In this document: in pieces, positions 3,919 to 50,559 of the stretch
Numbering within the stretch: position 1 is the stretch's first letter
Layout: each line of letters begins with the position of its first letter
Assembly: GCF_000718515.1 (NCBI RefSeq)
Contig: NZ_JNZS01000001.1
Coordinates: 1 to 64,000 of the forward strand
From: Micromonospora parva
GTDB taxonomy: Bacteria > Actinomycetota > Actinomycetes > Mycobacteriales > Micromonosporaceae
DNA length: 64,000 nucleotides
Direction: 5' to 3'
Program-made: the position numbers and the translations under genes
The notes under the pieces: model-generated
What the model was told of the DNA's origin: nothing
What the model saw: only the letters and a program-made list of their open reading frames with translations
The model's database searches: none

Positions 3919-5967
3919 TCAGTCCCGCTCCTGCGTCAGCTGCTCCCAGTCGGTGACGACCGGTAGCAGCTCCCCGGCCAGCCAGGCGCGGCTCTGGTCG
4001 TCGTGGTGCGGGTCGCCGGGCACCCCGCACGCGCCCAGCGGGACCACCCACCGGCTGTCGCTGCGGCGGGCCAGGTCCCAGACGAAGCGCGCCGCCGGCC
4101 CCCGCAGGCACCAGTGGGTGACCCCGGGCACGCTGGAGGTGGCCAGCACGCAGTCGTGGTCACCGTCGAGCCGGGGACCGGGCCCGGCGTCCGCGCCGGG
4201 CAGCGCCCGCCACAGCGCCAACCGGTGCAGGTCACCCCAGGGCACCTGCCCGGCGGCCGCGTCGCCGGCCTCCTCGGCCGCCGCGCTCACCAGCGCGCCG
4301 ATGTCCACACCGGGCGGCGGGGTCGCGCCGAGCAGATGCTCCAGCGCGTAACCGACCCGCGGCGTCAGCGCCAGCCAGGGCGCGAACACCTCGGGGTACG
4401 CGGGCGGCTCGGCCAGCGCGGCCAGCGCCGGGTGGGCGGCGAGCCGGCGGACGACAGCCGCCCGCAGGATGGCGTAGGCGGCCGCGTCCGTGCTGTCGGC
4501 GGCCATCCGGCGATCCCAGGACAGCAGCCGGTCGCGCAGCGCGGCGGCGGCCGGGCCGAGCCCCGTCGACTCGGCGAGGACGGCCAGCAGCGGCCCGGCC
4601 GCGCCCAGGTACGTGTCGGTGTGCACAGCGGCCATCTCGTCGGCCGTCCACGTCGCCCGGGCGTCGAGCAGTTCGGTGATGCGGTGCGCCCGGTGCGGTG
4701 CGGCGAACTCCACCCCGAGCGGGGCCGCCAACCCGCGCTCGTTGGCCATCACCGCCCGACCGGCCACCTCGGCGCGGGGCATCGGCGCGTGCCAGCCCTG
4801 CCAGGCGTGCGCGGCGTCCCACCCGGGGACCACCCGCCGGCCGTTCTCCGGGTGCCGTACCGGCACCGCCCCGGCGACCCGGTGCAGCAGCCCTCCGGCG
4901 GTGTCCGCCGCCTGCACCACGTTGACCGGCTCCACCCAGTGCCGCAGCGCGTGATCCACGTCGGACACCGTGCGGGCGCGCAGCAGCTCCGGCAGCGTCG
5001 CGAAACCGCTGTCACCCCGGACCCGGGGCGGGTAGCGCAGGCTGAGCGCCGTCTCGTCGTCGGGCCCACCGGCGATCACCGGACCACGATCGGTCTCCAC
5101 CACCTCGACCTCGACCGGGTCGGCCCCGGCCACCTCGATCGTCTCGACGTGCCGGTGCGCCGGTCGCCAGCCGTCCGGGCCGAGCGCCTGCACCCGCAGG
5201 CCGTCGCGGCGCAGCCGCTCCGCGTACACGTCCTGGTAGTCGGCCATCGCGTTGGTGATCGCCCAGGCCACCTCGCCGGTGTGCCCGAAGTGGGCGATGC
5301 CCGGCACGCCCGGCACCGCCAGCCCGATGACGTCGTACTCCGGGCAGGCCAACCGGATCTGCTGGTAGACACCGGGATCCTCAAGGAACCGGTGCGGGTC
5401 ACCGGCGAGCAGCGCGGCCCCGGTGCCGGTGCGCTCGGCGGCGAGCAGCCACCCGTTGCTGCCGGCCACGGCCGGACCGTCGGTGGCGAACAGGTCGACC
5501 CAGTCCGGCCCGAGCCGCTGCGCGACGTGCTCGCGCCAGAGCTTGCCCGGGAACCCGGCGAACAGGATGTGGTGGCCCAGCCACACCGCGAGCGGTGTCC
5601 ACGGCTCCCACCGGCCGGGGCGAAGCCCGGTGGCGGCGAACTCCGGCGACCGGGCAGCCCCGGCGGCGAGAGCGGCGTTGACGCCGTCCACGTAGGCGCC
5701 CACCCACTCGGCGGTCGCCTTGTCCAGCGCCGCGTGGCAGCGGCGGGCGGTGTCGTCGAGCCGGACCTGCCGGACGAACCGGTCCCAACCGAGCGCGTCC
5801 GGGCCGAGGAACGCCGCGCTGGTGCCCCGGGCCCGGTGCCGTTCCACCTCGATCTGCCAGGCCCGGTCGTACGCGGTCACCCGACCCTGCGCCGCCGCCA
5901 GGGCGAGCGGGTCGTCGGCCCGCAGGTGCGGCACCCCCCACGGGTCGCGGAAACGTTCTGTGCTCAC
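3919..5967 (-). CDS. Penicillin acylase (Ntn-hydrolase) family protein in siderophore operon, 682 aa
   Basis: An N-terminal-nucleophile amidohydrolase, cleaving or forming an amide bond. The start is the GTG at 5967, overlapping the ATPase stop as GTGA, so translation is coupled; the longer open frame upstream is only the antisense of the ATPase gene. Residues 1-169 would be the alpha chain. AGSNGW gives Ser170 as the autoprocessing nucleophile, followed by LLAGDPHR, LAVPGVPGIAHFGHTGEVAWAITN and a long beta chain. No signal peptide is seen, so it is probably cytoplasmic, unlike periplasmic penicillin G acylases. Established knowledge: penicillin-amidase genes (called desG in some Streptomyces) have been linked to des clusters making aryl-capped desferrioxamines. 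Inference: it edits, caps or opens the siderophore. The family call is firm; substrate is unknown. Confidence 0.88.
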   Translation of the reverse strand: MSTERFRDPWGVPHLRADDPLALAAAQGRVTAYDRAWQIEVERHRARGTSAAFLGPDALGWDRFVRQVRLDDTARRCHAALDKATAEWVGAYVDGVNAALAAGAARSPEFAATGLRPGRWEPWTPLAVWLGHHILFAGFPGKLWREHVAQRLGPDWVDLFATDGPAVAGSNGWLLAAERTGTGAALLAGDPHRFLEDPGVYQQIRLACPEYDVIGLAVPGVPGIAHFGHTGEVAWAITNAMADYQDVYAERLRRDGLRVQALGPDGWRPAHRHVETIEVAGADPVEVEVVETDRGPVIAGGPDDETALSLRYPPRVRGDSGFATLPELLRARTVSDVDHALRHWVEPVNVVQAADTAGGLLHRVAGAVPVRHPENGRRVVPGWDAAHAWQGWHAPMPRAEVAGRAVMANERGLAAPLGVEFAAPHRAHRITELLDARATWTADEMAAVHTDTYLGAAGPLLAVLAESTGLGPAAAALRDRLLSWDRRMAADSTDAAAYAILRAAVVRRLAAHPALAALAEPPAYPEVFAPWLALTPRVGYALEHLLGATPPPGVDIGALVSAAAEEAGDAAAGQVPWGDLHRLALWRALPGADAGPGPRLDGDHDCVLATSSVPGVTHWCLRGPAARFVWDLARRSDSRWVVPLGACGVPGDPHHDDQSRAWLAGELLPVVTDWEQLTQERD

Positions 5968-6788
5968 GCCGGCTCCGGGGCCAGGGTGGTGGCCCGGCGT
6001 CGGGCCGCCGGGACGACCAGCGGGGTGCCCGTCTCCGGGTCGTCGATGACCCGACAGGGCAGACCGAACACCTCCGCCACCAGGTCGGCGGTGACCACCG
6101 ACGACGGCTCCCCGGCGGCCACCACCCGCCCGTCGCGCATCGCGATCAGGTGGGTGGCGTAGCGGGCGGCGTGGTTCAGGTCGTGCAGCACCGCGACCAG
6201 GGTGCGTCCCTGCTCCTCGTGCAGCCGGGCGCAGAGGTCCAGGATCTCGATCTGGTGGGCGATGTCGAGGTACGTGGTCGGCTCGTCGAGCAGCAGCAGC
6301 GGCGTCTGCTGCGCCAGCGCCATGGCGATCCACACCCGCTGCCGCTGCCCGCCGGACAGCTCGTCCACCGCCCGGTCGGCGAGGTCGTCGACACCGGTCG
6401 CGGCCATCGACTCCTCGACCACCCGTTCGTCCTCGCGTGACCACTGCCGCAGCAGCCCCTGGTGGGGGTAACGGCCCCGGGCGACCAACTCGGCGACGCT
6501 GATGCCGTCCGGCGCGATCGACGACTGCGGCAGCAGACCGAGCGTCCGAGCCACGGTGCGGGCCGGCAGGTCGTGGATGTTGCGGCCGTCCAGCAGCACC
6601 GCACCAGCGCTGGGACGCAGCATCCGCGACAGTGCGCGAAGCAGCGTCGACTTGCCGCACGCGTTCGGGCCGATGATCACCGTGAAGGAGCTGTCGGGCA
6701 CCGCCACGGTCAGGTTCTCGGCGATGGTGCGCTGGTCGTAGGCGAGGGTCAGCGCGGTGCCGCCGAGCCGGGAATCGCCGGGTCGCAT
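5964..6788 (-). CDS. Ferric-siderophore ABC transporter ATPase (FecE/FepC type), 274 aa
   Basis: Energises iron-siderophore import with the two FecCD permeases just upstream. Walker A is GPNACGKST, the signature is LSGGQRQRV, Walker B is PLLLLDEPTTYLD, and the switch His lies in AVLHDLNHA. The ATG at 6788 is preferred: GAAGGAG lies about 6 bases before it. A GTG at 6821 overlapping the permease stop would add 11 residues outside the ABC fold. Its stop overlaps the acylase start. Third gene of a leftward operon probably under the iron box at 8960-8978. Confidence 0.95.
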   Translation of the reverse strand: MRPGDSRLGGTALTLAYDQRTIAENLTVAVPDSSFTVIIGPNACGKSTLLRALSRMLRPSAGAVLLDGRNIHDLPARTVARTLGLLPQSSIAPDGISVAELVARGRYPHQGLLRQWSREDERVVEESMAATGVDDLADRAVDELSGGQRQRVWIAMALAQQTPLLLLDEPTTYLDIAHQIEILDLCARLHEEQGRTLVAVLHDLNHAARYATHLIAMRDGRVVAAGEPSSVVTADLVAEVFGLPCRVIDDPETGTPLVVPAARRRATTLAPEPA

Positions 6789-6817
6789 GGGTGCTCCTTC
6801 GAGGGTGTCGCGGGTCT

Positions 6818-7846
6818 TCACAGCCGGCCCGCCCGGCGTTCCACGGCCAGCAGCCAGACCAGGTAACCGCCGCCGATGACGCCGGTCACCACGCCGACCG
6901 GCAGCTGGTGCCCGTCGAACGCGCGTTGGGCCAACAGGTCGGCGCCGGCCAGCAGCGCCGCGCCGACGGTCATCGACGGGACCAGGTTCGGGCCCGGTGC
7001 CCGGGTCAGCCGTTTCGCCACGTGCGGGGCGACCAGCGCCACGAAGGACACCGGCCCGGCGGCGGCCGCCGCGAACGAGACCAGCAGCACGGCGGCGGCG
7101 AGCAGCGCCAGGCGCAGTCGGCGTACCGGCACGCCCAGCGCGCTGGCCGCGTCGTCGCCCAGCTCCATCATCCGCAGCGCCGGGGCGCAGCCGACGAGCA
7201 CCAGCGGCGCCAGCACGACCAGGACGGCGAGCAGCGGCCCGGCGTTGGCCCAGCCCCGCCCGTCCAGACTGCCGGTGAGCCAGAGCACCGCGCGGGCGGC
7301 GTCCATCAGGGGCGCCCGGGTCAGCAGGTAGCCGTTGACGCCGGTCAGGATCGCGGCCACCCCGATGCCGACCAGGATGAGCCGGTAGCCGTGCACTCCG
7401 CGCCGCCAGGCCAGCGCGTAGATCAGCAGGCCGGTGCCGAGCCCACCGGCAACCGCCGCGCCGGCCAACGCCAGGCTGCTGCCGCCCAGGACGACCACCA
7501 CCAGCGCGCCGGTCGACGCGCCCTGGGTGAAGCCCAGGATGTCCGGGCTGCCCAGCGGGTTGCGGACCAGGGACTGGAACACCGTGCCGGCCAGCGCCAG
7601 CGCCGCACCGACCAACAGGGCGGTGACCAGCCGGGGCAGGCGCAGGTCGTACACGATGAACTGTTCCGCCACGGTGCCGCCGCCGGTCAGCGTGCGCAGC
7701 ACGTCCGCCGGCCCCATCGGGTAGTCGCCGCTGCCCAGGGCCACCAGGCCGAACCCGGCCGCGAGCAACGCCGCACCGGCACCGACGCCCAACGCGCGGG
7801 GCCGGAACCGCACCGACAACCCCCCAGGGGTACGGATGACGCTCAT
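6818..7846 (-). CDS. FecCD-family siderophore permease, 342 aa
   Basis: Membrane half of an iron-siderophore importer of the BtuC/FecCD family, with about ten hydrophobic helices. Typical blocks are visible, such as GTVFQSLVRNPLGSPDILGFTQGAS in the first half and GDDAASALGVPVRRLR then GPVSFVALVAPHVAKRL in the second (coupling-helix region). The ATG at 7846 overlaps the stop of the preceding permease gene as ATGA, so the two permeases are coupled. An open frame continues further upstream but only as shadow of that gene. It probably pairs with 7843-8871 as a heterodimer. Confidence 0.94.
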   Translation of the reverse strand: MSVIRTPGGLSVRFRPRALGVGAGAALLAAGFGLVALGSGDYPMGPADVLRTLTGGGTVAEQFIVYDLRLPRLVTALLVGAALALAGTVFQSLVRNPLGSPDILGFTQGASTGALVVVVLGGSSLALAGAAVAGGLGTGLLIYALAWRRGVHGYRLILVGIGVAAILTGVNGYLLTRAPLMDAARAVLWLTGSLDGRGWANAGPLLAVLVVLAPLVLVGCAPALRMMELGDDAASALGVPVRRLRLALLAAAVLLVSFAAAAAGPVSFVALVAPHVAKRLTRAPGPNLVPSMTVGAALLAGADLLAQRAFDGHQLPVGVVTGVIGGGYLVWLLAVERRAGRL

Positions 7847-43378: not shown

Positions 43379-43514
43379 TCGCTGCCCGCATCACGGTACT
43401 GACAGCCAGTGACAACCGTCAATAGCGCTCTGGTAAGCGGTTTCCCGCGCCGTTGCGGCTGGTGACCTTTGCACTACGCTGCTTCCTGCGAGATGCGGCG
43501 ATGAGGAGTACCGG

Positions 43515-46500
43515 TTGACCGACATGCGCGGCGACGGGCCGGAACGGCCCTGGGGTGAGCTGGTGACGGTCATCATGGACAGGTACGACGCGCTTCCGCC
43601 GCTGCGTCGGATTCGTCCGGAGGTGGAAGCGGCGGCGGCCGTCCTGGCTCGCACCGGTTTCATTCGCGCGGCCAGCGACCTTCCCCGCGACGGGCTCGCC
43701 GCCAGCGTGAAGGAAGCCATCCGCGAGTGGTCCCCGAACCCGCGCCGGCTGGTGGTCTACTGGGCCGGTCACGGCAAGGCCGTGCACGGCGGCGAGTTTT
43801 TTCTGTGCTGCCGGGACACCACCGGCCCGGAGCCGGCGCAGGAGACCGCGATGTCGGCGCGGCGGCTCGGTGAGCTGCTCGCCACAAAGGACGTCGCCGA
43901 GATCGTCGTCCTGGTCGACGCGTGCGGTGCCGGTGGTGCCGCGGACGAGATCGTCGACGGGTTCCGACGGCAGGCGGAGCGTCGCGTCGCGGCCGGTGGC
44001 GGCCGGCCCAACATCGCGGTGATCAGTTCCGCGAGCCGGTTCGAGGTGGCGAAGGAACTCGTCTTCTCCCGGGCGCTCGCCGAGGTGCTCAGGGACGGCC
44101 CGCCACCGGATCCGTCGTACCTGCCGTGGACCGACCGGGACCGGCACATCACCCCGAACGAGCTGGCTCAGGCGCTGCGGGTGAAGCTCGCGAGCATTGA
44201 TGCCGGCCGGATCCTGCAGACCCCCGACCATGACATGGCGGGCATGGTGGGCCGGTTCTTCCGTAACCCACGGCACCGCGGCTGGCTGCCAGACGTCAAC
44301 GTCGACGAGCAGCGCCAGCGAAACGCGTTGCTGCCGGCGGACGTCGTCGAGCACTTCATGCTCAAGTTCCGGGGCATCGATGCCGGAGACGACCAGGGGT
44401 GGTATTTCACCGGTCGGCACACCGTACTGCGACGGATCGTGGCCTGGCTCAACGACGACCGGCCGGGCATGCTCGCCGTCACCGGGTCCCCGGGGTGCGG
44501 CAAATCGGCAGTGCTCGGTCGGCTGGCGATCCTGTCGGTCCCGGACTACCGGCAGGAGGTGGAGATCCACGGTGGCCTCAGCGGGGTCCCGGTGGACACC
44601 ATCCCGACAGCCGGGTCGATCCACGCGGGAGTGCACGCCAAGAACAAGGCCATCCTGGACTGTGTCAACGAACTGTCCGAGGCCCTGAACATCACCGCGC
44701 CCAGCCGTGGTTGGCAGACCGCGAGCGAGTTCGTGCACCGGGTCAGCGAGGTTCGCCGTCACCGGGCGACGATCCTGCTGGACGCGCTGGACGAGGCACA
44801 GCACCGCGACATCCGCCTGATCGCCTCGGAACTGCTGCGACCGCTTGCCGAGCTGCCCGGCATCAAGGTCCTCGTGGCTACCCGGCCGGACCGCTCGGGC
44901 GACCCGGTGAGCGCCGAGCAGGGGCACCGGCCGTTGCTGCGTGCCCTGGGGGTGAGCGACGACCAGGTGATCTGGCTGGACCGCGACGCCGACCAGGACG
45001 CGGACATCGCCAGCTACTCGTTCCGGCGGCTGACCCACACCGCAGGCTCTCCCTACGTGGGACGCGACGGCGAGGCCCGGCGCGCGGCGGAGGAGATCGC
45101 CGCCCACAGCAACGGCGTGTTCCTCTTCGCCCGCCTCCTCACCCGACGACTCGCCCGGATGCCGCAGGTAGCGGACCTGGGATCGCCGCAGATGCGCAGC
45201 CTGCTCAGCGGCAGCGTGGTCGATGCCTTCGCCGAGGACCTCGCCCGCTTCGGCGACCACGAGCGCAGAGTCCGTGACCTGCTCACCCCGCTGGCGTGGG
45301 CGGAGGGCGCCGGGCTGCCGCGCCGGGACGTGTGGCTCACCCTCGCCAACGCCGTCACCGACGGCGGTCGGTACACCGAGGCCGACCTGCACTGGTTGAT
45401 GGCCAACGCCGGCGCGCACCTGGTGGAGTCGAGTGAGGACGGCCAGGCCGTCTACCGGCTGTACCACCAGTCGTACAACGACTACCTCCGACGGGGCACC
45501 CAGACCCGGCGGGTGCAGGCGCTCATGACCAGGGCTCTGGTCGGCCTGACGACGATCGATGGCGTCCGTCGCTGGCCGGACGCCAATCCGTACGTCCTGC
45601 GGCACCTGGCGACGCACGCCGCTGCCGGTGACAGCCTGCCGGAACTCGTCGACGACAGCGCCTTCCTGCTCTACGCCGAGCCGACCCGGCTGTGGCGGGT
45701 CCTGGCCGGTGTCGACCACCGCGATCGGCCGTTGGTCCGGCTCTACTGGCGCACCGCCGCCGATTTCCCGGACATGTCCACCGCGCAGCGCGCCGCCGCG
45801 TTGCAGTCGGTGGCCCTCGCGCACGAGCCGGAAGCCCTGCCGCTGTTGCACCCGGTCGACGAAGTCCCCTGGCGGGGCCTGTGGGGCCGGGGCGAGCGCA
45901 GCGCCTTCCACCGACGCCTGGCCGGGCACACCAGCGCGGTGACCGCGGTGGCGATCCGTGAGGTGTCGCGCGACGTGGTCATCGCCACGGCCAGTGGGGA
46001 CGGCACCGTCCGCGTCTGGGACACGACAGGCAACCACCGGGCGACGCTGCGGGGGCACCGCGCTCCGGTGCTCGCCGTCGAGATCGTCGCCGTCGACGGG
46101 CGGAACTTCGTCGCCACCGGTGGCGCCGACGGCACGGTGCGGCTGTGGGACCTCACCACCGGCGCGCAGGAGGCGTCGGTGAGCCACGCAGGCGGTTGGG
46201 TGCACGCGCTGGCGGCGGTCACCCTGCCGGACGGGCGGGCGTTGCTCGTCGGCGGCGACGAGGCGGGCAGCGTGCGGATCTGGGGGCTGCCGGCCCTGAA
46301 CCTGCATGCCACCCTGCCGGACCATCTCACGACGGTGCGGGCGATCGTGACGGCCCAGGGCCGGGACGGCCGCTTCCTCATCGTCACCGGCGGCGACGAC
46401 GGCCGGGTACGCCTCTGGGACCCCGAGGGGTGGGTCCTGCTGCGGACGTTGGGGACCACCGGTTGGATCTACGCGTTGGCGGCGGCCACCATCGGCGGTC

Positions 46501-48029
46501 GGCTCCTGCTGGCCACCGGCGGTGCGTTCGGCACGGTGACGCTGTGGGACGCGGGGACCGGCGAGTCCCACGTCAGCTGCACCGGTCACACCGGAGCGGT
46601 CAACGCGCTCGCCTTCGGTGAGATCGACGGCCGGACGGTGCTGGCCACCGCCGGAGACGACGGCGGTGTCCGCCTGTGGGACCCGGTGAGTGGCTCCGCG
46701 CTGCGCACGCTGCGGCATCCGCCGTCGGTGTACCACGCCGAATCCGACTGGGCCGGCGAAGGCCGCCGGATGCTGGCGCTCGAAGGGCCGGAGGGTCCCG
46801 GCGATGAGCAGGAGCCGCGCGACGATCCGCCCGGCGACCGGGAGTCGATCCTCGCCCTGGGGTTCAACACGGGTCGAGGGCCGGCGGTGCTGGCCACCGG
46901 CGGTGCCGACCGCACCTTGCGGCTCTGGGAGACAGTGACGTCGACCGGCGGCGCCACCCGGGACGACGGCAGGTTCACCACCAGCGCGGTGTTCACCCGG
47001 ATCGGGTCCGAGCACGTGCTGGTGACCGGCGGCCGTGACGGGCGGGTGCTGGTCTGGGATGCGATGACCGGACGGGTCCGCCAGCCCATCGTCGGGGTCG
47101 GCGCGGTGAACGCCCTGGCGGTCACCGAGCTGGGTGGCCGGCCGGTCGTCGCCGTCGCCGCCGGCCAGTCCGTGCGACTGTGCGACGCCGCCACCGGCGA
47201 CCTGTTGGACGCCACCCGTGGGAACGCCGTGCTGTCCGTCATGGCGGTGGCGTTCTGCGACCTGGGGGAGGGCGTTCTGGTCGCCTACACGGGCGACCTG
47301 GGGCAGCTTGTGCTGTGGTCTCCGGCGACGCACGAGAGGTGGACGGTGCAGACGGCGGGCGGTCGGGTCAACGCCCTCGCCGTCGCCGTCCACGGGGACC
47401 GGAGGGTCGTGGCGACGGTCGGCTTCTCCGACACCGTCGAGCTGCGGGATCTCGGTGGCGAAGAGGTGCAGCTGCTGGCCGGGCACAAGGGCTACGTGCG
47501 GGCGCTCGCGGCCGGTAACCTTTCCGGCCGATCAGTGCTCGCCACCGGCGGGCAGGACAACAACGTCGTGCTCTGGGACGTCGAGCGGGGCGAAAAGATC
47601 CACACCCTGCGGGGGCACGGGGAGGCGGTGAACGCGCTCGCCATCGGTGAGATCGACGGGCGCACGGTGCTGGCTTCGGGCGGCGACGACCGCACGGTGC
47701 TGCTCTGGGATTGCCGGACCGGCCAGCGTCTGGCCCAACTGACCAGCCAGACGGCGGCCGTACGCGCACTGACGATCATTGAACGTGACGGTCGGACGCT
47801 CCTGGCCAGCGGCGGCGACGACGGGGTTCACATGGTGGAGCTGCGGCGACTTCCGGTACCGCCCGAGCAGAGCGGGGCGACGGGCGGCCGCCGGCAGCGC
47901 GTCCCGGCGGATGGGCCGGTCTTCGCCCCGGAACCGGAGCCCTCCTCCATGGCGGCGACGCCGACCCCGCCGGAAGAGTCAGAGGGTCGGCGACGCCGCA
48001 CCTGGATGCCCTGGCCCCGAGGGAACTGA
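43515..48029 (+). CDS. Caspase-like / STAND NTPase / WD40 repeat protein, 1504 aa
   Basis: Residues about 15-250 form a caspase-hemoglobinase (peptidase C14-type) domain with its dyad: His86 in LVVYWAGHGKAVHGGEFFL and Cys137 in EIVVLVDACGAGGAA. Residues about 290-640 are a P-loop STAND/NACHT-like NTPase: YFTGRHTVLRRIVAWLND, Walker A GSPGCGKS (324-331, Lys330) and Walker B ILLDALDE (420-427), then a helical region. From about 795 to 1455 there are 14 WD40-type repeats, enough for two seven-bladed propellers; a Pro/Glu-rich tail follows. No signal peptide or membrane segment, so cytoplasmic. STAND proteins switch on ligand-induced assembly; here WD40 would sense and the protease act. It precedes a lipase gene by 31 bases. 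Physiological role is not known. Confidence 0.92.
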   Translation: MTDMRGDGPERPWGELVTVIMDRYDALPPLRRIRPEVEAAAAVLARTGFIRAASDLPRDGLAASVKEAIREWSPNPRRLVVYWAGHGKAVHGGEFFLCCRDTTGPEPAQETAMSARRLGELLATKDVAEIVVLVDACGAGGAADEIVDGFRRQAERRVAAGGGRPNIAVISSASRFEVAKELVFSRALAEVLRDGPPPDPSYLPWTDRDRHITPNELAQALRVKLASIDAGRILQTPDHDMAGMVGRFFRNPRHRGWLPDVNVDEQRQRNALLPADVVEHFMLKFRGIDAGDDQGWYFTGRHTVLRRIVAWLNDDRPGMLAVTGSPGCGKSAVLGRLAILSVPDYRQEVEIHGGLSGVPVDTIPTAGSIHAGVHAKNKAILDCVNELSEALNITAPSRGWQTASEFVHRVSEVRRHRATILLDALDEAQHRDIRLIASELLRPLAELPGIKVLVATRPDRSGDPVSAEQGHRPLLRALGVSDDQVIWLDRDADQDADIASYSFRRLTHTAGSPYVGRDGEARRAAEEIAAHSNGVFLFARLLTRRLARMPQVADLGSPQMRSLLSGSVVDAFAEDLARFGDHERRVRDLLTPLAWAEGAGLPRRDVWLTLANAVTDGGRYTEADLHWLMANAGAHLVESSEDGQAVYRLYHQSYNDYLRRGTQTRRVQALMTRALVGLTTIDGVRRWPDANPYVLRHLATHAAAGDSLPELVDDSAFLLYAEPTRLWRVLAGVDHRDRPLVRLYWRTAADFPDMSTAQRAAALQSVALAHEPEALPLLHPVDEVPWRGLWGRGERSAFHRRLAGHTSAVTAVAIREVSRDVVIATASGDGTVRVWDTTGNHRATLRGHRAPVLAVEIVAVDGRNFVATGGADGTVRLWDLTTGAQEASVSHAGGWVHALAAVTLPDGRALLVGGDEAGSVRIWGLPALNLHATLPDHLTTVRAIVTAQGRDGRFLIVTGGDDGRVRLWDPEGWVLLRTLGTTGWIYALAAATIGGRLLLATGGAFGTVTLWDAGTGESHVSCTGHTGAVNALAFGEIDGRTVLATAGDDGGVRLWDPVSGSALRTLRHPPSVYHAESDWAGEGRRMLALEGPEGPGDEQEPRDDPPGDRESILALGFNTGRGPAVLATGGADRTLRLWETVTSTGGATRDDGRFTTSAVFTRIGSEHVLVTGGRDGRVLVWDAMTGRVRQPIVGVGAVNALAVTELGGRPVVAVAAGQSVRLCDAATGDLLDATRGNAVLSVMAVAFCDLGEGVLVAYTGDLGQLVLWSPATHERWTVQTAGGRVNALAVAVHGDRRVVATVGFSDTVELRDLGGEEVQLLAGHKGYVRALAAGNLSGRSVLATGGQDNNVVLWDVERGEKIHTLRGHGEAVNALAIGEIDGRTVLASGGDDRTVLLWDCRTGQRLAQLTSQTAAVRALTIIERDGRTLLASGGDDGVHMVELRRLPVPPEQSGATGGRRQRVPADGPVFAPEPEPSSMAATPTPPEESEGRRRRTWMPWPRGN
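46596..46645 (+). repeat. Intragenic duplicated WD40 segment, copy 1 (copy 2 at 47625-47674)
   Basis: These 50 bases match 47625-47674 at 46 positions, in the same reading frame, encoding the AVNALA..GEIDGRTVLA core of repeats 6 and 13. Other repeats are much less alike at the DNA level, so this pair shows recent duplication or gene conversion, with equivalent positions (sixth blade) in the two propellers. Confidence 0.75.
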
Positions 48030-48060
48030 ACCATCCGAACCATCCGAGCGGAGGAGCCGC

Positions 48061-49401
48061 ATGCCCACCCGTGACCTGGTCGTCATGGTGCCCGGGGTGA
48101 CGGGGAGCGTGTTGACGCTGCCCGGGCGGGGCGACGTCTGGAATCTGTCCTGGCCCACGGTCGCCCGAGGCGCTGCGGCGTTCGCCCGTACCGTCGAACT
48201 GCTGCGCCTTGCCGAGGGTGCGCCGGGGACGGACGGGCTGCGGCCGGCGGGTCCGGTTCGCGGCCTCCACCTGTGGCCCGGGTTCTATGGCGGCCCCGGG
48301 TACGACCGCCTGCTGCGACAGCTCACCGATGCCTTCGGCCCGGCTCTGCGGGTGTTCAGCTACGACTGGCGGCGGTCGAACCGGCACACCGCGAGGCTGC
48401 TGAACGAGCACGTACGGTCCTGGTTGGACGAGTGGCGGCGCGGCGCTGGCGGCCCGAGCGCCAAAGTCGTCTTCGTCTGTCACTCGATGGGCGGGCTCGT
48501 CGCCCGGTACCTCATCGAGGTGCTGGGTGGCCGGGAGCTGACCCGCCGACTGGTCACACTGGGCACGCCCTACCGCGGCTCGGTGAACGCGGTGCGGGCG
48601 TTGACCGGCGATGCCTTCCGGCCACTGCGTTCGCTCGGCTGGGACACGCTGCTGACCGACGTCACGCGGACCTTCCCGTCACTGTACGAGCTGCTGCCGA
48701 CGTACCGTTGCGTGGACGTCGGCGGTGGACCGGCGAACGTGCGGGACGTGGCCCTGCCGGGGCTGCCGCCGGACGCGGTGGCGTCCGGACTGGCCTTCCA
48801 TGACGAGATCGCCGCGGCGGTGCGGGTGAACGGCCGCCCCGAGTACACAGTTCACGCGGTCGCCGGCAAACGCCAGCCCACCTGGCAGAGCGTGACCGTC
48901 GACCGGGACGGCCTGTCGTACGGGAAGGCCTACCAGGGTCGGGACTATCTGGGCGACGGGACGGTGCCGCTGTTCAGTGCCGTGCCACCGGAGTGGGCCA
49001 CCACCGAGGAGGCAACCTGCTTCGCCGAACGACACGGCCCGCTGACCGCGTCGCGTCGGGTGCTCGACGTGATCCTCGACAAGATCGATCCCGTCGACCT
49101 GGGGGAGATCCTGGCGCCGCCGGTGGAACTCGGCCTGGACGTGCCCGAGGTGGCGGTGGCGGACACGCCGCTGCCGGTGGTGGTGACCGCCGATCGGCCG
49201 GACCTGCTCCTGCACGCCCGACTCGAGTGCCCGGACCGCGGCGAACCGGTCGCCGTGACCATGCTGCGTCCCGACGGGCACTGCCGCTACGACGGCTACC
49301 TGCTGCCGCCGGTGGGGACCTGGCGGATGGTCGTCGAGGCGGTGGCCGAGGTTCCTCCGGTGGCCATCTCCGACCTCGTCTTCGTGGCACCGGCGGGGTG
49401 A
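48061..49401 (+). CDS. Lecithin:cholesterol acyltransferase (LCAT)-like lipase/esterase, 446 aa
   Basis: Alpha/beta hydrolase of the LCAT type, expected to cleave or transfer acyl groups of lipids. MPTRDLVVMVPGVTGSVL is the first strand and oxyanion region, VFSYDWRRSNRHTARLLNEHV is typical of LCAT/PDAT proteins, and KVVFVCHSMGGLVARYLIE carries the nucleophile elbow (Ser in CHSMGG). GDGTVPLFSAVPPEW provides the acid residue (GDGTVP) and CFAERHGPLTAS the His. A C-terminal beta domain follows. No signal peptide or membrane helix is seen, unusual for a lipase and consistent with a controlled intracellular effector. ATG 48061 has GGAGGAG upstream. Co-transcription with the caspase-STAND gene is likely. 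Confidence 0.9.
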   Translation: MPTRDLVVMVPGVTGSVLTLPGRGDVWNLSWPTVARGAAAFARTVELLRLAEGAPGTDGLRPAGPVRGLHLWPGFYGGPGYDRLLRQLTDAFGPALRVFSYDWRRSNRHTARLLNEHVRSWLDEWRRGAGGPSAKVVFVCHSMGGLVARYLIEVLGGRELTRRLVTLGTPYRGSVNAVRALTGDAFRPLRSLGWDTLLTDVTRTFPSLYELLPTYRCVDVGGGPANVRDVALPGLPPDAVASGLAFHDEIAAAVRVNGRPEYTVHAVAGKRQPTWQSVTVDRDGLSYGKAYQGRDYLGDGTVPLFSAVPPEWATTEEATCFAERHGPLTASRRVLDVILDKIDPVDLGEILAPPVELGLDVPEVAVADTPLPVVVTADRPDLLLHARLECPDRGEPVAVTMLRPDGHCRYDGYLLPPVGTWRMVVEAVAEVPPVAISDLVFVAPAG

Positions 49402-49431
49402 ACCGCCGCTCTCCGATATGGCGCGCTGGTG

Positions 49432-50559
49432 TCAGTCCGCGCGTGCCGGTTCCGCCGGTCGGGTGAAGAAGCGCACGATGTCGTCCGCCGCGGTAGGGGA
49501 CAGCATCATGGCCTGGACCCGTGCGGACATCTCGGCGATCGGGTGGATCCTGGTGAACATCGACTCTTCGTAGCCACGGATCGCCGCGTTCGGGTCGGCC
49601 GGATCGGCGGCGAGTCGGCCGGCGAGTTCCGCCGCGTCGAGCATGGCCTGGTTCGCGCCCTCGCCGACCGGCGGCATGAGGTGCGCGGCGTCGCCGATGA
49701 GGGTGACGCCCGGCCGGTTGGCCCAGCGCGTACCGAGGGGCATCGCCTCGATCAGGCGTGGCGTCGGCGGGCTGTCGGCGGCCGCGATGAGTGCGGTGAG
49801 GCGGGGGGCCCAGCCAGCGAACAGGTCCAGCAGGGCACGCTTGCTGCGGTAGGTGTCGAGGGGCTGCTCCGGCGCGCGCAGCGAGATCCCGACCCGGAGG
49901 CTGCCGTCGCCGAGACGTTGGGCGGCCAGGATCTGGTTCGCGCCGACGCACCACAGGTTCCCGGGGCCGACCAACTCGGCGAGGTCGGGACGGCGCCGGT
50001 CGGCGTCCTCGACGCTCAGCTCCACCAGGGTCGCCACATAGGACAGCGCGACGTCGGTCAGCAGCGGGCGGACGACCGAGCGCGCGCCGTCCGCGCCGAT
50101 GAGGATGTCGCAGGAGGCCCGGTGGCCGTCGTGGAACGTCAGATCCCAGCCCCCGTCGGGGCATGCGGTCGCCGCGACGAGCCGGTGCCCCCAACGAACC
50201 GTGCCGCTGGGCAGGGAGTCGAGCAGGAGATCACGCAGGGCGCTGCGGTCGATCTCGGGTCGCCCGGAGAATGAGCCGGGTTGCGGCACGTGGTGCACCA
50301 GGGTGCGCCCGGTCGGGTCGAGGATGCGATGTTCCTCGCCCTCGGGCCGCGCCTCCGACTGGAACCGGTCGGCGAGACCCGCCTCGGCCAGTGCCAGCTG
50401 CCCGGACTCCGGATGCAGGTCGAGGGCGCCGCCCTGAGGGCGCGCGGACCGGCTCGCCTCGCGGTCGTACACGACCGCGTCGATGCCGTGCCGATGCAGG
50501 ATCCGGGCCAGCGTCAACCCGCCGAGGCCACCACCGGCGATCGCGATTCGCGTTCTCAT
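49432..50559 (-). CDS. FAD-dependent monooxygenase (TetX/aromatic hydroxylase type), 375 aa
   Basis: Class A flavoprotein monooxygenase. FAD-binding GxGxxG in RIAIAGGGLGGLTLARILHRHG at the N-terminus, the DG motif in CDILIGADGARSVVRPLL and the GD motif in GVTLIGDAAHLMPPVGEGANQAMLDAAELA. The pattern resembles TetX and other hydroxylases that modify tetracyclines or aromatic compounds. ATG 50559 is chosen over an upstream GTG in the same frame, as the FAD motif then starts at residue 4. It diverges from a TetR regulator with a near-symmetrical operator between, so it is likely induced by its own substrate or a toxic compound. Confidence 0.9.
   Translation of the reverse strand: MRTRIAIAGGGLGGLTLARILHRHGIDAVVYDREASRSARPQGGALDLHPESGQLALAEAGLADRFQSEARPEGEEHRILDPTGRTLVHHVPQPGSFSGRPEIDRSALRDLLLDSLPSGTVRWGHRLVAATACPDGGWDLTFHDGHRASCDILIGADGARSVVRPLLTDVALSYVATLVELSVEDADRRRPDLAELVGPGNLWCVGANQILAAQRLGDGSLRVGISLRAPEQPLDTYRSKRALLDLFAGWAPRLTALIAAADSPPTPRLIEAMPLGTRWANRPGVTLIGDAAHLMPPVGEGANQAMLDAAELAGRLAADPADPNAAIRGYEESMFTRIHPIAEMSARVQAMMLSPTAADDIVRFFTRPAEPARAD

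Follow-up and report, generated by a model that had tools for sequence, protein, structure and literature searches.

What is a caspase-like protease, fused to a nucleotide-binding switch and a WD40 sensor, doing beside a gene for a lipase in a soil bacterium? The question is raised by two adjacent genes of Micromonospora parva in a 64,000-nucleotide stretch of DNA, here called the window (assembly GCF_000718515.1, contig NZ_JNZS01000001.1, positions 1-64,000 of the forward strand). Gene 1 (43515..48029, forward strand) encodes a protein of 1504 amino acids in which a caspase-like domain is followed by a STAND NTPase, a helical arm and a double WD40 propeller; gene 2 (48061..49401, forward strand) encodes a 446-amino-acid serine hydrolase resembling LCAT and lysosomal phospholipase A2 (LPLA2). 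Directly supported are the two genes with their intact catalytic residues and predicted folds, their conserved linkage, and their gain or loss as a unit. The pair is probably a two-protein regulated-death (conflict) module, in which an apoptosome-like sensor-protease would control a cytoplasmic phospholipase executioner.

Gene 1 starts at a TTG codon at 43515 or at an alternative ATG at 43524, and its closest database protein is 1501 amino acids long. The caspase-like domain (residues ~10-252; 43542..44270, forward strand) carries the catalytic His86 and Cys137, with Asp135 two residues before the cysteine, and matches PF00656 at 24.3 bits (cut-off 21.4). An alignment of the window protein with 43 homologues chosen from 120 listed caspase-STAND clusters showed the His86-Cys137 dyad to be invariant (44/44) and Asp135 to be present in 43 of the 44 sequences. 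The domain has a caspase fold by prediction: Foldseek-type comparison returned caspases, with caspase-9 among the tied best matches, which bears out what an earlier reading of the sequence alone (the first-pass annotation) had claimed. An aspartate at position -2 of the catalytic cysteine would, as in metacaspases, suggest a basic P1 residue for this caspase. The STAND NTPase and its following helical region occupy residues ~261-770 (44295..45824, forward strand), with Lys330 in the P-loop and the motif LLDALDE at 421-427. The P-loop and Walker B residues Lys330, Ser331, Asp423, Asp426 and Glu427 are invariant in all 44 aligned sequences. Walker A, Walker B and the predicted fold are all those of a STAND, Apaf-1-like NTPase, and full-length Apaf-1 was the top Foldseek match to residues 1-800 (3sfz, E 1.5e-9; 1z6t, E 1.5e-8); neither NACHT nor NB-ARC was among the 25 rows listed for gene 1, to which 49 families matched in total. 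The remainder of the chain consists of 14 WD40 blades (residues ~796-1445; 45900..47849, forward strand), recognized by Pfam WD40 models and by 14 blade-end motifs, and these likely form two seven-blade propellers.

The start of gene 2 is very likely the ATG at 48061, rather than the long open reading frame (ORF) start at 47779; this ATG has GGAGG upstream and lies 31 bases after the end of gene 1. The protein matches PF02450 at 37.7 bits (cut-off 21). Its triad, Ser142-Asp299-His325, is invariant in an alignment of the window protein with 64 of 120 listed lipase clusters (65/65), and likewise in a second, smaller lipase alignment (26/26). The best matches to the predicted structure were LPLA2, Tle4 and LCAT, which gives gene 2 the fold of the LCAT/LPLA2 family, followed by a C-terminal beta-sandwich (residues ~352-446). 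The model is confident throughout, with the lowest blocks of predicted local distance difference test (pLDDT) scores, at residues 31-40, 51-60 and 71-80, still reaching 69-77. The fold's first strand starts as early as residue 6, and hydropathy averaged over 19 residues peaks at 1.65; judged by these two measures, there is no apparent signal peptide or membrane helix. Because a strand of the fold lies so near the N-terminus and no stretch is strongly hydrophobic, the protein should be cytoplasmic. Its structural model points to a putative phospholipid-cleaving enzyme. The two-gene anatomy described in the first-pass annotation (1504 residues, His86/Cys137, Lys330, LLDALDE, 14 WD40 repeats, a 31-base gap, an LCAT-like triad and no signal peptide) was thus confirmed.

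The pair sits in an accessory insertion that holds exactly these two genes (~43453..49429), between a ThuA/GSDH gene and a flavin adenine dinucleotide (FAD) monooxygenase gene. Its edges were located by blastn against five genus mates (L187-L191), namely those in which, among the matches listed, a single contig carries close relatives of the two flanking genes: homology stops at 43446-43452 and restarts at 49423-49432. The pair is missing in all five, and the flanks lie 1.1 to 3.0 kb apart there. The slot between them holds other ORFs in the genus mates and is a small variable site; in three of the five (L187, L189 and L191) it contains an ORF that appears to encode a DUF574-type methyltransferase. 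The lipase occurs in only one of 41 genus genomes (its own), in 18 of 150 family genomes and in three of 296 genomes of a phylum sample (its own included). It is also present in 23 plasmid records, among them plasmids of Streptomyces, Rhizobium, Bradyrhizobium, Agrobacterium and a cyanobacterium, and no match was found in phage records. The two genes are gained or lost as a unit.

The pairing of gene 1 with gene 2 is not due to chance. The same genome, in which the window pair lies on contig C1, contains the pair once more, in head-to-head orientation: a lipase (C3:67639-68952, 42% identical) and a further caspase-STAND-WD40 gene. A third caspase-STAND-WD40 gene, on C7, was at first considered a hydrolase-free example, an idea dropped because its next gene encodes a 289-amino-acid alpha/beta hydrolase of a different family, hyd2. 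Members of hyd2 are ~290 amino acids long and carry the motif [AG]HSLGS (L030:12965-13840 in this genome), and of 21 loci scanned (L030, L163-L182), 15 have one adjoining a caspase-STAND gene. In the family sample, 34 caspase-STAND genes were examined: 14 neighbour the lipase, 15 neighbour hyd2 and five neither, so that 29 of 34 have one of these two hydrolases beside them. These 34 derive from 35 rows reaching the caspase domain plus G019, whose caspase was seen only in a later locus scan (36 in all, with G059:C468 and G061:C39 left out); the first scan scored at most six candidates per genome. Further, when the longest contigs of the 120 lipase and 120 caspase-STAND clusters listed were compared, 22 lipase clusters had one of exactly the same length as that of a caspase-STAND cluster, against a chance mean of 0.23. 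Lipase and caspase distances also correlate in 22 of 27 caspase pairs (Mantel r 0.61, 0/5000 permutations; L031, L042, L186, L195 and L197 left out). Conservation of the gene pair had been proposed earlier as a check. The pairing does recur in relatives and moves as a unit, and homologues of gene 1 are not confined to solitary, housekeeping contexts.

The lipase belongs to a clade delimited by lipase-profile E values of at most 3e-64, against at least 2e-44 for other hydrolases, a limit drawn after the scores were known. The 46 clade loci examined comprise all 24 of the family sample, 12 of 80 loci from a peptide-pattern scan (a single pattern, which yielded at least 80 loci and is a sample), two from the phylum sample and eight of the 23 plasmid records. 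A predicted cysteine protease adjoins the lipase in 43 of the 46: a caspase in 27, a transglutaminase-like protein in eight and a CHAT protease in eight (weakly in L057). Of the remainder, one has a subtilase (L054, on a 4-kb contig) and two have no protease (L037, at a contig end, and L052). STAND domains accompany 26 of the 27 caspases, the exception being L042, and the sensor parts beside the lipase vary among WD40, TPR and HEAT repeats. Hosts with a cysteine-protease partner belong to the Actinomycetota, Pseudomonadota, Cyanobacteriota and Chloroflexota; the subtilase locus is from a planctomycete. The transglutaminase-like label is tentative; it was given for a cysteine and a histidine conserved in four aligned members, and there was no Pfam transglutaminase match. 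Seven of these eight neighbours have a STAND- or AAA-type match, in some cases below the Pfam cut-off, and none was seen in L071. In genome G112, one contig (C2; L031-L034) holds four clade lipases with STAND partners, three of them within ~70 kb, plus a hyd2 pair; one of the four lipases (L031) is split into two frames by a frame change.

A tree of the lipases places three changes among caspase, transglutaminase-like and CHAT partners over 42 rows, the minimum possible being two; this count excludes three loci labelled partnerless (six changes with them), and L031 was left out of the tree. The protease partners thus appear to be mostly inherited, with a few swaps, such as that of the caspase locus L042, which lies inside the CHAT group. 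Beside its clade lipase, L042 encodes a single protein (4067-7297, reverse strand) that matches both a caspase and a DUF7379 alpha/beta hydrolase (Pfam, 63.4 and 54 bits), and this protein is a predicted natural fusion of caspase and hydrolase activities. As a negative control, 68 distant hydrolase loci were taken from the peptide-pattern loci. None held a STAND or transglutaminase-like gene, five had a weak caspase match somewhere and 17 had a CHAT gene. The control is therefore not a clean one for CHAT, and pairing with proteases extends beyond the clade. The 17 CHAT-bearing loci of LCAT/PGAP1-like hydrolases (L064, L065, L066, L070, L079, L081, L090, L091, L098, L104, L107, L111, L113, L116, L125, L129 and L130) come from many phyla, and the CHAT gene mostly lies shortly downstream of the hydrolase, indicating a wider hydrolase-CHAT pairing. 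Two rhizobial plasmids (L192 and L193) have an S8 peptidase gene after a lipase-CHAT pair; TniB/TniQ transposition genes adjoin L193, and L192 has an AbiEi/AbiEii pair nearby.

In the mechanism proposed here, the WD40 propellers of gene 1 would sense a trigger, likely a phage; the STAND NTPase would change state, and probably oligomerise; this change would activate the N-terminal cysteine protease; the protease would most likely control the lipase, through cleavage or through release from a resting complex; and the phospholipase would then act as executioner by damaging the cell's own membrane, killing the cell. A sensor-gated protease is favoured because a phospholipase-like enzyme lies so constantly beside a predicted cysteine protease, mostly one carried on a sensor, as in trypsin-nuclease, caspase-nuclease and gasdermin systems. 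A broader and more tentative proposal, to which we would give somewhat less than even weight, is that the whole lipase clade is a lipid-cutting, protease-gated death effector: the phospholipase would be kept, as the activating cysteine protease (caspase, CHAT or transglutaminase-like) and the sensor (WD40, TPR or HEAT) change around it, and its caspase-STAND-WD40 version would amount to a bacterial apoptosome in a single chain, with phospholipid hydrolysis as the means of killing.

Several observations weigh against a protease-controlled death module. Regulation and lipid metabolism are also among the roles of STAND-WD40 proteins and alpha/beta hydrolases, and no published activity for these proteins was found. 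The lipase model contains no disordered active-site plug or gating insertion (no segment below pLDDT 50), and no conserved cut site, which the first-pass annotation had suggested looking for, was found by eye in the smaller, 26-sequence alignment. Five of the 34 caspase-STAND genes have neither hydrolase, and the Mantel correlation does not remove shared host ancestry. Nor was a defence island found at the window, a point that the same annotation had raised: PADLOC, run on 12 neighbouring proteins, left 10 without a match, and its 2023 models assigned the lipase to no family.

The lack of both a plug and a conserved cut site makes release from an inhibitory complex a serious rival. Here the lipase would always be competent and held by binding to gene 1, in the manner of an immunity protein, until the trigger frees it, with the caspase cutting other targets in parallel. 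The compact lipase model would suit this arrangement, as would the resemblance to Tle4, which has been solved in complex with its partner Tli4. Similarly, the C-terminal beta-sandwich is present in aligned clade members, lies outside the structural match to Tle4 and LPLA2, and could dock on a partner; the lipase-profile match is longer in the clade (median 1380 bases) than in the 68 distant relatives (952). However, the caspase, transglutaminase-like and CHAT partners differ in architecture and have only predicted protease activity in common, which indicates proteolysis and not one binding surface, and we consider constitutive inhibition by binding rather unlikely.

It is less probable still that the pair serves regulation or development in multicellular actinomycetes, for instance membrane remodelling during sporulation or hyphal death, and not defence. 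Many named homologues do come from actinomycetes with complex development, the window has no defence island, and such systems are tied to a multicellular habit in the part of the work of Kaur (2020) that was available. On the other hand, a core developmental gene would be retained, and the sporadic occurrence (1/41 in the genus, 3/296 in the phylum sample), the cassette-like insertion and the plasmid copies speak against development. As for a housekeeping enzyme of lipid metabolism that lies beside a STAND gene by chance, PF02450 and related hydrolases are common enzymes, and none of the 68 distant-relative loci has a STAND gene. Yet a caspase-STAND gene adjoins the hydrolase in 26 of the 46 clade loci and in none of the 68 distant ones, and the distribution is that of an accessory element, so that this explanation is largely refuted by the neighbour counts and is very improbable.

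An anti-phage role of the pair is plausible, given its accessory distribution and the kinship of its parts. The two PADLOC matches among the window neighbours were to a subtilase model and a desaturase model, and gene 1 matched HEAT-ARM_XIII only (residues 1295-1443, within the WD40 part). PADLOC on ten proteins from other loci, partners included, gave one CHAT-SIR2 protein with ThsA matches and one caspase. The former lies in L036 (3935-9173), where a CHAT-SIR2 protein with a ThsA-like SIR2 domain, an nSTAND1 NTPase and a clade lipase stand in a row; a link of this arrangement to nicotinamide adenine dinucleotide (NAD)-depleting defence is possible.

Parts of the pair resemble several known systems. 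Gene 1 shares with Apaf-1, the apoptosome protein working with caspase-9, a STAND domain with a helical arm and WD40 blades; unlike in Apaf-1/caspase-9, gene 1 itself includes the caspase and has a lipase gene as its partner. Tle4 is a secreted lipase of type VI secretion and LPLA2 is lysosomal, whereas gene 2 apparently encodes a cytoplasmic enzyme, with the extra C-terminal beta-sandwich, and has a sensor-protease gene as its neighbour. Bacterial gasdermin and CARD-NLR systems, reportedly described by Johnson in 2022 and Wein in 2025, resemble the proposed module in combining an NLR-like ATPase, a protease and a membrane-attacking effector; here, unlike in CARD-NLR systems, caspase, STAND and WD40 parts form one chain and the effector is LCAT/LPLA2-like, a PF02450 protein and not a gasdermin. 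Phospholipases take the place of gasdermin in some CARD-NLR systems, according to the available part of one report (PMC13236601). Likewise, the accessible portion of another describes fungal NLRs with a SesB-like lipase or patatin, that is, NACHT/WD40 receptors with a lipase-fold effector; there the receptor itself carries the lipase at its N-terminus, with no caspase partner mentioned in that portion, whereas gene 2 is a separate gene (PMC4986451).

The closest parallels for control of a hydrolase by a protease are the canu systems, in which a caspase activates a pro-nuclease, and the trypsin-nuclease pairs (PMC12799240, in the part available). As in the lipase clade, a hydrolytic effector gene is kept beside proteases of different classes, caspases among them. 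The canu effector is a nuclease of the MBL fold with disordered gating insertions, a disordered active-site plug being named there as a hallmark, and its activation was demonstrated; the effector here is an LCAT-type lipase that is paired with a protease in the same way, has no visible plug, and would be controlled by the protease.

In the VMAP (MoxR-vWA) ternary systems, an alpha/beta hydrolase invariably neighbours the caspase domains, and joint operation was proposed (Kaur, 2020; PMC7159879, as far as available). These systems resemble the pair in having a caspase domain in a large regulatory protein and an adjacent alpha/beta-hydrolase gene; unlike in them, the caspase here is fused to STAND and WD40 parts. 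No VMAP gene is present in the window, and the sole VMAP-C match of the genome is at C3:205274. VMAP loci were dropped as a source of the lipase: in the 20 fetched of 46 family-sample VMAP-C loci, searched for these two families only, neither the lipase nor hyd2 was found (0/20). Two of the 20 contain a caspase gene, without lipase or hyd2 (L246 and, in the own genome at C3:198000-213000, L247), and the ORFs listed for both show no obvious serine-hydrolase motif. A small neighbour of the L247 caspase may be EACC1.

The first-pass annotation knew of no characterised system that pairs a caspase-STAND protein with an LCAT lipase. This stands for the exact pairing, since no published caspase-STAND-WD40 and LCAT-lipase pair was found in a literature search that covered few subscription papers; the same search found neither the lipase clade, nor the apoptosome-like pairing, nor the change of protease class around the clade. 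It does not extend to the idea of joining a caspase with an alpha/beta hydrolase, which is already in print for VMAP systems (PMC7159879, available part); the CARD-NLR phospholipase variants likewise precede the present proposal, and caspase-NACHT-WD40 proteins had already been described (PMC3501461, from the part at hand).

If the proposed mechanism is true, apoptosome-like sensing, caspase activation and membrane destruction would be joined without a pore protein, in a system that corresponds to the gasdermin or caspase-nuclease ones but cuts lipids. The pair would then offer a compact two-gene cassette in which such a death switch could be tested, and a candidate function would be at hand for many genes whose present annotation reads hypothetical or WD40-repeat protein.

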